Assembly (NCBI RefSeq): GCF_002261345.1
Contig: NZ_NEVT01000003.1
Location: 1,240,001 to 1,304,000 of the forward strand
DNA length: 64,000 nt
Origin: Bordetella genomosp. 2
Lineage (GTDB): Bacteria > Pseudomonadota > Gammaproteobacteria > Burkholderiales > Burkholderiaceae_B
Direction: 5' to 3'
Below, one piece after another: positions 26,184 through 51,035 of the stretch. Made by a program: the position numbers and the translations under genes. The stretch's first letter is position 1. Every line of letters begins with the position of its first letter. The notes beneath the pieces are model-generated. The model searched no databases, had not been told where the DNA came from, and was given only the letters and a program-made list of their open reading frames with translations.

Positions 26184-26573
26184 ATGGCAGTCCCTCGCCA
26201 CGGCAACTCATGCGCCACGCTGGCCCCCGCCGCGCGCTGGCTGGGATGGCTCAACGCCATCGCGGTCCTGGGCGAGCTGGGGTTCGCGCTTGGCGTGCTG
26301 GGCAGCGAAGTCGCGCCGCCCAACCTGGCCGTGCCGCTGGCGTGCTTCCTGGCAGGGGTGGTGGCCAGCGGGCTGTCCATGGTCTGCTGGAGCTGGGGGG
26401 CGGACGAGGCTGGCCGGCGCTGGCTGGCCCCGGCACGGTGGGCCGGCTTGCTGGCGTACCTGCTGGCGCTAGCCGCCTTCGTCGCCGGGTGCTGGCTGTC
26501 GGCCGGCCTGGCGTTCGAGGCTGATGCTGGCGACGTGGACGCCGGCTACACAATGCGTATACCTGGCGCTTGA
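26184..26573 (+). CDS. Hypothetical four-helix membrane protein
   Basis: 129 aa with about three to four hydrophobic segments (WLGWLNAIAVLGELGFALGV, VPLACFLAGVVASGLSMVCW, WAGLLAYLLALAAFVAGCWL). No family recognised. A TTG at 26163 that overlaps the preceding stop (TTGA) is an alternative start adding seven residues; the ATG at 26184 has no strong Shine-Dalgarno, so coupling from TTG is possible. Downstream lies the pyrB operator region. Confidence 0.6.
   Translation: MAVPRHGNSCATLAPAARWLGWLNAIAVLGELGFALGVLGSEVAPPNLAVPLACFLAGVVASGLSMVCWSWGADEAGRRWLAPARWAGLLAYLLALAAFVAGCWLSAGLAFEADAGDVDAGYTMRIPGA
26554..26561. promoter_or_regulatory. Upstream half-site TGCGTATA
   Basis: TGCGTATA at 26554-26561 repeats the right half-site of the palindrome downstream (26616-26623), exactly 62 bases apart, close to six DNA turns. 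A same-face second binding site for the putative autorepressor is inferred. Confidence 0.4.
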
Positions 26574-26600
26574 AATTGCTTGCGACGCGGTGAGTGAGGG

Positions 26601-26629
26601 ATTTAATATACGCATTGCGTATATTAAAT
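26601..26629. promoter_or_regulatory. Perfect 29-bp palindrome before pyrB
   Basis: Left arm ATTTAATATACGCA (26601-26614), centre T at 26615, right arm TGCGTATATTAAAT (26616-26629): 14+1+14 without mismatch. It ends 18 bases before the pyrB ATG, in an AT-rich island inside GC-rich DNA, and contains TATATT/AATATA words that could act as a -10. The most likely role is an operator for a dimeric helix-turn-helix protein, plausibly the N-terminal domain of the adjacent pyrB product. Confidence 0.7.
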
Positions 26630-26647
26630 CCCCCCCCGAGGCCGGCC

Positions 26648-27940
26648 ATGTCCATCTCCCAACAAGCTTTCCTGCGCGACGCGATGCGTCGCCTCAATTT
26701 GACGCGCGATGTCTTCGCCACCCGCATCGGCGTGAAGCGTCGCGCGCTGGACACGTGGCTGCTGCCCGAGGGGTCGCAGGAATTCCGCGCCATGCCGGAA
26801 GTAGTCGAGCGCTTCGTCGGCGAAATCGTCCAGAACGAGGCGTTGCGCGAGAAATATACGCAGAGCTCGCAGGTGGGGCCGCTGCGCGACCGCATTGCCT
26901 ATGACGGCAAGCACCAGCTCATTTCGGTGGACCAGTTCTCGCGGGAATCGGTGGAAGATCTGTTCCGGGTCGCCGACCTGATGCAACCCATTGCGCGCCG
27001 CCAGAAAGTGTCGCGCGTCCTGGAAGGCGCGGTGCTGGGCAACCTGTTCTTCGAGGCCAGCACCCGCACGCGCGTGAGCTTCGGCGCGGCGTTCTGCCGC
27101 CTGGGCGGCTCAGTGTGCGACACCACCGGCTTCACGTTCTCGTCCATGGCCAAGGGCGAGTCGATCTACGATACCAGCCGGGTGATGAGCGGCTATGTGG
27201 ACGCCATGGTGGTGCGTCACCCGGACCAGGGTTCGGTCGCCGAGTTCGCGCGCGCGACCAACATCCCGGTGGTCAACGGCGGCGACGGGCCGGGCGAGCA
27301 TCCCAGCCAGGCGCTGCTGGATCTCTACACCATCCTGACCGAGTTCTCGCGGCTGGGCAAGCTGCTGGACGGCGCTCACATCGCCATGGTGGGCGACCTG
27401 AAATACGGGCGCACCGTGCATTCGCTGATCAAGCTGCTGGCGTTGTACAAGGGCATCAAGTTCACGCTGATTTCGCCGCCGGGGCTCGAAATGCCCGGCT
27501 ACATCATCGAGCAGGCCAGCCGCAACGATAACGTCATCGAACAGAAGAGCACCCTGGCCGATGGCCTGGCGGGCGTCGACGTGATCTACGCCACCCGCGT
27601 ACAGAAAGAGCGCTTCGCCAACGAGGAGACCGAGGGATATACCCCCGATTTCCAGATCAGCCGCGCCACCATCGACGCGCACTGCGGGCCGGATACGATC
27701 GTCATGCATCCGTTGCCGCGCGACAGCCGGCCGGGCGCCAATGACCTCAGCACCGACCTCAACGACGACCCGCGCCTGGCGATCTTCCGCCAGACCGACA
27801 ACGGCATCCCGATCCGCATGGCGATCTTCGCCGTGCTCCTGGGGGTGGAAGGGCTGGTGCAGCACTCGATGCGCGACGTGACCTGGAAACATCCGTCGCA
27901 CGTCGGGCCCGACGACTCCGCCTTCCACGGGCTCGACTGA
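26648..27940 (+). CDS. pyrB: Aspartate carbamoyltransferase with N-terminal HTH domain
   Basis: 430 aa against ~310 for a normal catalytic chain. Residues 1-75 form an XRE-like helix-turn-helix (LNLTRDVFATRIGVKRRALD, then TWLLPEGS and a helical tail). From about 85 on it is ATCase: carbamoyl-phosphate loop FFEASTRTRVSF (136-147), 80s-type loop SSMAKGESIYDTSR, YVDAMVVRHPDQG, HPSQALLDLYTI, HPLPRDSRPGANDL, and RQTDNGIPIRMAIF. It catalyses the first committed step of pyrimidine synthesis. The ATG at 26648 follows GAGG. No pyrI or pyrC adjoins. A perfect palindrome sits just upstream, so the HTH part may repress its own promoter. Some relatives are known with this fusion; DNA binding here is inferred. 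Confidence 0.92.
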   Translation: MSISQQAFLRDAMRRLNLTRDVFATRIGVKRRALDTWLLPEGSQEFRAMPEVVERFVGEIVQNEALREKYTQSSQVGPLRDRIAYDGKHQLISVDQFSRESVEDLFRVADLMQPIARRQKVSRVLEGAVLGNLFFEASTRTRVSFGAAFCRLGGSVCDTTGFTFSSMAKGESIYDTSRVMSGYVDAMVVRHPDQGSVAEFARATNIPVVNGGDGPGEHPSQALLDLYTILTEFSRLGKLLDGAHIAMVGDLKYGRTVHSLIKLLALYKGIKFTLISPPGLEMPGYIIEQASRNDNVIEQKSTLADGLAGVDVIYATRVQKERFANEETEGYTPDFQISRATIDAHCGPDTIVMHPLPRDSRPGANDLSTDLNDDPRLAIFRQTDNGIPIRMAIFAVLLGVEGLVQHSMRDVTWKHPSHVGPDDSAFHGLD

Positions 27941-27982: not shown

Positions 27983-28882
27983 TCAGATGCGCTTTTCGCC
28001 GCCCAGCGCTTCGGTCAATTCGGCCAGCAGCTTGGCCAGCTCGCCCGTCATCAGCGCCATGTCGGAGTCGAATTTCTCGTCGTCGTTCTGCATGACCGTG
28101 TCGTTGCCTTCTTTCAGCACGTCCAGCGGCGTCACCCGCTTGATGTCCAGCGCTTCGGTCAGCACGAACGACACGCGGTCGGCCCAGGTCATGGCCAGGC
28201 GGGTGCATTGTTTGCCGGCCTGGATGTGGCGGCGCACGTCGTCCACGTCGATGGAGTGCTTGACGTAGCGGATGGCCGCGCGGCTTTCGCCCGAGGCGCG
28301 CAATTCCGTGTCCTGGTCGATGCTGAAATTGGGCGGCGCTTCGTCGGCGGCGAGCCAGCCGGTCATCGCCGCCGCCGGCGATTGCGCGACGTACAGGTTC
28401 TCGAGCGGCAGCGGGTCGATGGTCTTGACCAGCAGCCCGATGACCTCGTCCGCCTTCGCCGATGCGGCCGCGTCGATCACCAGCCAGTGATTCACCGGGT
28501 CGATCCACACCCGGGTATCGCGGTACACGCTGAACGCCTTGGGCAGCAGTTCGTCGGCGACACGTTCCTTGATTTCTTTCATTTGCTTGCGGCCGGGCTT
28601 GTAGCCCTGCTGCTCTTCGATCTCCTGGGCGCGCGCACGCGCCACCTGGTTGACCACCGTGGCCGGCAGCAGTTTCTTCTCGGCGCGCACGGACAGCAGG
28701 ATCTGCTGGTTCACGCTGTGCGACAAGGCGGCGTTTTCGCGCGGGGAAATCCAGCCCAGGCTCTGCATTTCGAGATTGTTGCCGGCCTGATACGCGTGCC
28801 GGGCCAGGCTTTCTTCAAGCTGCTCGCCGGTCAGCGTCCACGGCGAGGAAAGACGGTATATCTTGAGATTCTTGAACCACAT
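27983..28882 (-). CDS. rdgC: Recombination-associated protein RdgC
   Basis: 299 aa, normal length. The ATG at 28882 begins [20 protein letters not shown], the family start; also [34 protein letters not shown] and [14 protein letters not shown]. RdgC forms a ring around DNA and restrains RecA. Leftward, convergent with pyrB. In Neisseria it affects pilin variation; its role here is probably general DNA maintenance. Confidence 0.95.
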
Positions 28883-29032
28883 GGCGTCGGGCAAAAGGGT
28901 TGATTCTATACGACCATGACTGCCGTGGCGCCCCATGTGGTTCCCCCATTGACACGACACGTTCTGTCACTGACAGTGGACGGGCGTTCCGGTATCTTCC
29001 GGCGCATCTTCACTAGCCAAAAGGACATAACA

Positions 29033-50066: not shown

Positions 50067-51035
50067 TCATCCAGCCTTTTTCCGGGGCCCGGAGACCAGC
50101 TTGGGGGACTTGTCGCGCAGGTAGATTTGCGTGGTTCGGCGGTCGGTGTGGCCGAGCAGGCCTGTCGCGTCGCCGCCCTGGCGATCCACCTCTGTTCCCG
50201 CCATGGCCCGGAGGTCGTGCAGGGTGACGTCCCCCACGCCGGCCTTGGAGGCGGCCAGCTTGAACGAGCGCCAGACATTCGAGTGCGCGCGCAACTTGCC
50301 GCCGCGGCCGGCCAGCAGATAAGTCATGTTGACTACCGGACCCGTCTCCTGCTCCGCGCGCTTGACGGCGTCGCGCAGTTCCGGCGTCCATGCCACGACA
50401 AGCTGTTTCCCCGTCTTCTGCTGCCGGAAGTAGATGCCGTCGTCTCCCAGGTGGGCGCGCTCGATGGCCAGCACGTCGCCGATACGCTGGCCCGTCAGAT
50501 AGCACAGATCCAGTACGCACTGGAGCCAGGGCGCACATTCCTTGTAGATGGCCAGGTATTCAGCCTCCGAGATCAGCCGATCCCGCGGGCGCTGCTTGAA
50601 GCGCTTGACGCTCACGGTCGGGTCCATTTCGACGATCTGTCGATCCAAGGCCCATCTGTAGACCAGGCGCAGGACCGTCAGCATGCGGTTGGCCACCATC
50701 TGCCGGTCTTTGAAGCCGTCCATCATCTGCACGATGTCGCCGTGGCGAACCTGCTCGGGGCGAAATTCGGCGAACACCTCTTTCAACAGCCTCGCGCAGT
50801 ACTGGTACTGCTTGCTGGTCGATTCCTTGACGTCCTCCAGGATCGACGGCAGGGCCTTGTCGATGAGGTCAGGGACCCCATCTTGCGGGGATCCCATGAT
50901 GCGGGCGTATTCGAGCAGGGCGGACTTCAGATCGCCGCCCAGCCGCTGCCACTTACCCTGTTTGACCAGATAGTAGGCGCCGTGCTTGAGGTATACGCAG
51001 GGTGGGAGATCGCGGTTTTTCGTTCTTGGTCGCAT
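50067..51035 (-). CDS. Prophage tyrosine integrase
   Basis: 322 aa site-specific recombinase. Catalytic set visible: R184 (TGQRIGDVL), K207, H273 and R276 (LHDLR), H296 (LLGHTDRRTTQIY), nucleophile Y305. N-terminal arm-binding part about 1-60, SAM-like core-binding about 60-150. It reads leftward and ends about 80 bases from the presumed attL, the standard position. It overlaps the DUF4224 gene by 83 bases. Confidence 0.95.
   Translation of the reverse strand: MRPRTKNRDLPPCVYLKHGAYYLVKQGKWQRLGGDLKSALLEYARIMGSPQDGVPDLIDKALPSILEDVKESTSKQYQYCARLLKEVFAEFRPEQVRHGDIVQMMDGFKDRQMVANRMLTVLRLVYRWALDRQIVEMDPTVSVKRFKQRPRDRLISEAEYLAIYKECAPWLQCVLDLCYLTGQRIGDVLAIERAHLGDDGIYFRQQKTGKQLVVAWTPELRDAVKRAEQETGPVVNMTYLLAGRGGKLRAHSNVWRSFKLAASKAGVGDVTLHDLRAMAGTEVDRQGGDATGLLGHTDRRTTQIYLRDKSPKLVSGPRKKAG

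Follow-up and report, generated by a model that had tools for sequence, protein, structure and literature searches.

What does a DNA-binding fold do on an enzyme of pyrimidine biosynthesis, and why is a perfect palindrome placed directly ahead of its gene? Textbooks present aspartate carbamoyltransferase (ATCase) as the classic allosteric enzyme, controlled by allostery together with transcription sensitive to uridine triphosphate (UTP). The question is raised by the pyrB gene of Bordetella genomosp. 2, located within a 64,000-nucleotide stretch of contig NZ_NEVT01000003.1 (hereafter the window; all positions refer to it), the product of which, HTH-PyrB, has a helix-turn-helix (HTH) domain joined to the N-terminus of the ATCase. 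Three DNA elements are considered here: the palindrome, designated operator O1; a solitary copy of half of it farther upstream; and an operator-like site within the gene, O2. O1 is conserved, is specific to HTH-pyrB, and is missing from genomes whose HTH has been lost or has degenerated. A conserved landing site at its own gene strongly suggests, as far as comparison of sequences goes, that the enzyme shuts off its own production. We therefore propose, and consider probable, that HTH-PyrB is a working ATCase which also represses its own gene via O1, aided by the phased half-site and/or O2.

Conservation of operator O1

The palindrome ahead of pyrB, which the initial annotation had given as 14+1+14, is real and in fact longer, being a perfect 17+1+17 palindrome at 26598..26632, recognized both by its symmetry and by its conservation in relatives. 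Its conserved core is TATACGCA-T-TGCGTATA (26607-26623), with the general form TATACGCA-N-TGCGTATA. As the same annotation had proposed, the palindrome was sought upstream of orthologous HTH-PyrB genes. Sixty-one genomes of the family of the window, inferred to be the Alcaligenaceae, were searched with NF008853; 47 were above the cut-off, and 44 had both a full-length HTH-bearing protein and a non-reduced genome. The O1 core was present in 44/44 of the latter at 13-17 of 17 positions, beginning at a variable distance of 29-69 bases ahead of the start of the NF008853 match. When these loci were aligned on the core, conservation was found at about -13 to +11, with the left CGC invariant and the right GCG kept in 44, 42, and 44 of the 44 genomes at its respective bases. 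Because most columns outside this block carry only 0-0.3 bits, with 0.5-0.7 bits in a brief A-rich run (-43 to -41), the conserved island exceeds what would be expected from shared ancestry alone. Likewise, O1 was present at 14-16 of 16 positions in 80/80 named relatives, i.e., the best 80 of 418 loci confirmed by scan. These two sets overlap and, with two loci from other families, make up 104 distinct loci; the relatives in all such counts are related by descent and the counts are non-independent.

HTH-PyrB is found in 31 of the 43 family genera sampled, including Bordetella and Achromobacter (hand count). Outside the family, an order-level sample of 150 genomes (5 from the family of the window) yielded HTH-PyrB in two genomes, G447 and G339, and O1 precedes both genes (14 and 15 of 17). 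Each of these genomes also holds a second ATCase-like match (132-138 bits), taken as an ordinary pyrB, and the presence there of HTH-pyrB together with O1 and O2 (loci L180 and L181) is a candidate case of transfer or of an ancient second copy. A class-level search employing 98 residues gave a match in 2 of 274 genomes, the genome of the window included.

The same symmetry could also let the pyrB leader form an RNA hairpin that acts through attenuation or a block of translation, and positions 26598-26650 do fold into a long hairpin (-24.6 kcal/mol; z = -4.67). Among 46 O1 sites, however, the pairing is disrupted in 39 of 368 cells, the innermost pair accounting for 22, with no double changes, and it is thus not kept by compensation. 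Moreover, conservation is centred on the 8+1+8 core at a varying distance from the ATG (-29 to -69), no Rfam family was found at its gathering score, and a hairpin leaves the phased upstream half-sites unexplained. An RNA leader or riboswitch was rejected on the lack of compensating changes and of such an Rfam family, and we regard it as extremely improbable. The match of Rfam mir-4803 over the palindrome (27.5 bits against a gathering score of 90) was taken as chance.

O1 where the HTH is lost, altered, or absent

O1 is missing in 4/4 family genomes with a lost or degenerate HTH; the highest scores around the gene start there are 10-11 of 17. In G039 and G014 the HTH is absent, and the G014 match also holds one stop; G007 and G048 are genomes of 0.8 Mb in which the HTH has diverged. 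Furthermore, no site with two or fewer mismatches occurs near the ordinary pyrB in 13/13 HTH-less members of the family, and the nearest HTH-less ATCases, which belong to another family, score 9-10 of 17 in 3/3 cases. An altered recognition helix, RRRTLDSW, is found in G026 and G060 together with an altered and weaker operator (13 of 17). On these comparative grounds, HTH-PyrB would have what is looked for in a trigger enzyme, namely a conserved operator at the target gene which tracks the DNA-binding domain.

Some scores weigh against such a strict association. Five more distant HTH-less ATCases score 10, 10, 12, 12, and 13 of 17, and the highest of these, at locus L189 (G423), equals the weakest HTH-bearing loci. 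The L189 site, TTCACGCAGCGCGTATA, runs into a TATAAT-like box, and for this reason its likeness to O1 may be due to chance.

Loci L049, L050, L051, and L052 come from small or reduced genomes with a diverged or missing HTH; O1 is gone from them and the ATCase part is kept, with one stop within the matched stretch of L052.

Position of O1 relative to the promoter

A candidate -10 element, TAATAT (26604..26609, plus strand), overlaps the left arm of O1, and a candidate -35 element, TTGCGA (26580..26585, plus strand), lies 18 nucleotides before it; both were assigned by eye, and a consensus promoter scan of the window reported no promoter. Three bases ahead of the O1 core, 86/104 loci carry one of two hexamers, TAATAT (55 loci) or AAATAT (31 loci). 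The likeness to TTGACA is greatest 26 bases before the core, at 2.57 of 6 against a background mean of 1.50 (standard deviation 0.34 over offsets -80 to -9), which corresponds to a spacing of 17; the candidate -35 element of the window is one base further away, with a spacing of 18. At these offsets, the operator would cover the putative -10 box and the start of transcription.

Phased half-sites upstream of O1

The half-site repeat 62 base pairs (bp) upstream, to which the initial annotation had also drawn attention, proved to be real and to belong to a wider set of half-sites in helical phase. In the window, the solitary half-site TGCGTATA is located at 26554..26561 (plus strand), 62 bp or six turns from its copy in O1. 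The only other exact TGCGTATA in the window (50992-50999, minus strand) is away from pyrB. Within 200 bp upstream of O1, the 104 loci contain 11 exact half-sites, compared with 0.375 expected from shuffled sequence and with a mean of 0.17 and a maximum of 2 for scrambled half-sites. Their displacements from the like half of O1 are 41, 42, 42, 52, 62, 62, 72, 82, 82, 82, and 84 bp (phase test, p = 2e-4, the floor of the test).

So that no loci were singled out, all 268 family genomes retrieved were searched for an exact half-site ahead of any site fitting TNTRCGCNNNGCGYAYA, with displacements of 28-88 bp for the left half and 30-90 bp for the right half. It gave 17 matches versus none for the reversed pattern, and 15 of the 17 lie upstream of HTH-pyrB, in 14 genomes of 8 genera. 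The matches in G660 and G677 (displacement 65) were omitted from the phase test, as the fetched stretches show no HTH-pyrB start next to them. None of the 15 displacements (41, 42, 42, 42, 51, 52, 62, 62, 72, 74, 82, 82, 82, 83, and 84 bp) deviates by more than 1.2 bp from a multiple of 10.4; the Rayleigh vector is R = 0.90 at 10.4 bp, with a permutation p = 1e-5 (floor) for all 15 values. The 13 genus-collapsed values give the same p = 1e-5 (floor), and a single value for each genus, tested with the period fixed, gives p = 1.4e-4. Chance as the origin of the 62-bp half-site of the window was rejected on both the exact half-site counts and the spacing.

Second sites upstream of O1 are rare among the 80 named relatives. 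G550 (L208) has two half-sites ahead of O1, at 42 and 83 bp, which form an even array of four-turn steps. Among half-sites matching at 7 of 8 positions and lying up to 100 bp away, that of L104, at 59 bp, is off phase. To judge from sequence, half-sites phased in this manner are the pattern that would be expected if a protein bound along a single face of the helix.

The upstream half-sites also bear on whether HTH-PyrB could bind these sites and activate the promoter or organise the DNA, without repressing. Solitary half-sites upstream of the putative -35 box occupy a common activator position. In contrast, the only site present in all HTH-bearing non-reduced genomes sampled is O1, and its overlap with the predicted -10 box and start is the position of a repressor; in addition, self-activation by the sole biosynthetic enzyme would presumably be an unstable feedback. 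Activation or DNA organisation without repression is thus considered unlikely.

The intragenic site O2

O2 (26855..26871, codons 70-75) corresponds to nucleotides +207 to +223 (where 0 is the A of the ATG), a region in which the HTH domain ends and confidence in the structural model declines. In the window it is weak, with only the left half TATACGCA intact (11 of 16). Among the named relatives, O2 has 12-14 of 16 core matches in 63/80, often as TATACGCAAAGCGTACA, and 9-11 of 16 in 17/80; it is the best core match within the gene in 65/80. O2 is kept in G447, G339, and G026 (14, 13, and 13 of 16) despite a different flanking linker, and is poor in G031 and G060. The distance between O1 and O2 is mostly 236-252 bp, and no clear helical phase was found between them.

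Codon usage in 99 non-identical genes points to the same region. Of 257 codons, the least expected choice is at codon 74 (GCA or GTA), with codon 72 (CAA) in third place; among windows of six codons, 70-75 ranks first (2.86 bits), with codons 2-7 at the gene start close behind (2.73 bits). The site thereby shows signs, at the sequence level, of selection acting on the DNA. Rare codons may also aid folding where one domain gives way to the next, although folding alone is disfavoured because the site matches the operator.

Other sites in the genomes

O1 is the sole exact core match in the genome of the window, where the next best site has 2 mismatches. In the 61 family genomes, 74 forward matches with two or fewer mismatches were recovered, comprising 41 O1, 2 O2, and 31 other sites (hand count), while the reversed pattern gave 25 (hand tally). 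A wider regulon was rejected, the other sites being near this reversed-pattern background. In G046 and G060, one non-O1 site, inside a long open reading frame (ORF), fits the pattern better than O1 does. Eighteen of the other sites were inspected: 5 are at a spot between iclR and tctC, 10 fall within long ORFs (one of these at the start of a gene), and 3 are not clearly genic; by eye, and with no family search made on the neighbours, none is beside a recognisable pyrimidine gene. HTH-PyrB thus probably has one target, its own gene.

The iclR/tctC spot suggests another possible owner of O1, namely an unlinked regulator, for example of IclR type, with the HTH of PyrB doing something else. A similar palindrome, TTTACGCATAGCGTATA, lies between divergent iclR-like and tctC-like genes in the genome of the window (L054, 1501-1517; G000:C5:334860-334876), and like sites were found at this spot in four other inspected genomes, two of which, G040 and G043, are without HTH-PyrB. 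This palindrome is probably the own operator of that IclR-type regulator. A close copy of the IclR protein (E value <= 1e-60) occurs in just 18/61 genomes, i.e., 14/44 non-reduced HTH-PyrB genomes and 4/13 HTH-less ones (hand count), and it was rejected as owner of O1 on this basis. O1 is present in 30 genomes without a close IclR copy, a count which leaves room for more distant IclR proteins. Moreover, O1 tracks the HTH, both into other families and in its losses. Ownership of O1 by such a regulator is accordingly held to be improbable.

The HTH and ATCase parts of the protein

HTH-pyrB (26648..27940, plus strand) was identified by its match to NF008853. The initial annotation had read an HTH ahead of a complete ATCase, and both parts were recovered, the former as a modelled fold and the latter through the full-length family match. 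Since a structure search with the full-length model gave ATCases only among the 50 matches listed, the HTH was modelled alone with AlphaFold (mean predicted local distance difference test score 84.8; core 93-95). The domain includes about residues 1-71 (26648..26860, plus strand), with predicted helices at 5-16, 20-27, 31-37, and 51-74, of which helix 31-37, RRALDTW, is the recognition helix by our own assignment. HTH proteins top the list of its structure matches, and the model resembles Aca1, HigA, P22 c2, and SinR, so that it would have the HTH fold of these repressors. Pfam HTH_3 (XRE/Cro-CI type) scored 12.2 bits with the domain of the window, below the gathering score of 23, and matched 7 of 14 members at E <= 1 (best E value 0.0011). 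Among PDB sequences, a profile search with the HTH recovered no HTH protein at E values of 10 or below.

HppE and MPnS are also among the structure matches. The HTH might, as in HppE, be a structural leftover for oligomer assembly, with the palindrome merely a promoter element. A promoter element, however, needs no palindrome, no phased repeats, no intragenic copy, and no loss together with the HTH, and we consider this reading very unlikely.

The 430-residue protein scores 847.9 bits with NF008853/PRK11891 (curated cut-off 560) over residues 1-430, i.e., its full length. Alignment to the solved ATCase 2rgw revealed the motifs STRTR, SSxAKGES, RHP, HPSQ, KYGRTVHS, TRxQKERF, and MHPLPR, whose roles in catalysis are general knowledge, and the catalytic motifs are largely invariant in the 32 relatives compared. 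A PF02729 search found no second ATCase in the genome of the window, the only other match being an ornithine carbamoyltransferase. The PyrI regulatory chain (PF01948) was likewise not found in this genome (0/1; the control search was positive in 7/14 genomes), and the protein lacks the PyrI partner of a class B ATCase (PyrB + PyrI). With its catalytic motifs kept, HTH-PyrB would be a working ATCase.

A possible ribosome-binding site, GAGG (26638..26641, plus strand), was recognized by eye. The next ORF downstream of pyrB (27983-28960) is on the opposite strand and resembles what we take to be rdgC.

Proposed mechanism

In the mechanism we propose, the HTH would bind O1 over the -10 box and the probable start site and would thereby block RNA polymerase. 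ATCase catalytic cores are trimers, and each assembly would therefore carry spare HTHs, the oligomeric core providing three or more. The extra HTHs could grip the phased upstream half-site and/or O2, either cooperatively or with the DNA bent or looped, and repression would be tightened. Surplus enzyme would shut the gene, which would reopen as the enzyme is diluted or titrated.

A more specific version, which we put forward only tentatively, is a three-armed repressor in which the trimer clamps O1 with two HTHs while the third arm, on a flexible linker, reaches a single half-site lying an integral number of helical turns away, or O2. On such a model the auxiliary upstream sites would be solitary half-sites rather than palindromes. 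If true, it would couple the quaternary shape of an allosteric enzyme directly to DNA looping.

The initial annotation had suggested an autorepressor tuned by carbamoyl phosphate, aspartate, or UTP. This idea is borne out in part, in that autorepression fits the placing of O1 on the putative -10 box; direct binding, repression as opposed to activation, looping, and nucleotide or substrate control are what we infer.

Relation to known systems

Trigger enzymes are likely the nearest precedents for HTH-PyrB, by analogy. BirA carries an N-terminal HTH on an essential enzyme and represses its own biosynthetic pathway via a palindromic operator, as proposed here; its repression is directed at the bio genes and not primarily at itself, and it dimerises, whereas ATCase cores are trimers. 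The DNA-binding part of PutA is a ribbon-helix-helix, as opposed to the HTH in PyrB. In Escherichia coli, BirA, NadR, PepA, PutA, and PyrH are described as trigger enzymes (PMC8249747), with BirA both a biotin ligase and a repressor (PMC8249747, PMC4877710). Like the protein proposed here, PutA is a metabolic enzyme which represses its own gene, and it had a single target in the cited screen (PMC8249747). PutA is, however, catabolic and proline-responsive, while HTH-PyrB is a biosynthetic ATCase with a phased array and an intragenic site.

At carAB, a pyrimidine-pathway promoter of E. coli, the hexameric enzyme PepA acts as a repressor and wraps about 230 bp of DNA (PMC6245113). HTH-PyrB would likewise be a multi-subunit enzyme repressing a promoter of this pathway, and the wrap is comparable to the O1-O2 distance. 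PepA is an aminopeptidase that binds via surface patches and acts on carAB, whereas for pyrB the candidate regulator is the pathway's own enzyme. E. coli pyrBI is controlled by UTP-dependent reiterative transcription (PMC6245113). The E. coli ATCase shares its catalytic fold and motifs with HTH-PyrB but has PyrI, in contrast to the HTH as the extra part and the operator control proposed here. In BzdR, a DNA-binding domain is joined to a shikimate-kinase-like domain (PMC3602430), so that both proteins combine a DNA-binding domain with an enzyme fold. BzdR is reported to have lost catalysis, a loss essential to its evolution (PMC3602430), whereas HTH-PyrB keeps its motifs and is the only ATCase found in its genome. 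No HTH-bearing or self-repressing ATCase was found among the literature matches listed, in which subscription journals are thinly covered.

Thus 31 of 43 sampled genera of the family seem to use ATCase as its own repressor. The layout would combine a promoter operator, phased half-sites, and an intragenic operator written in codon choice. HTH-PyrB may also represent a working intermediate in the evolution of an enzyme into a transcription factor, for which comparable forms are available: HTH-bearing proteins, those in which both the HTH and the operator are lost, and HTH-less close relatives.
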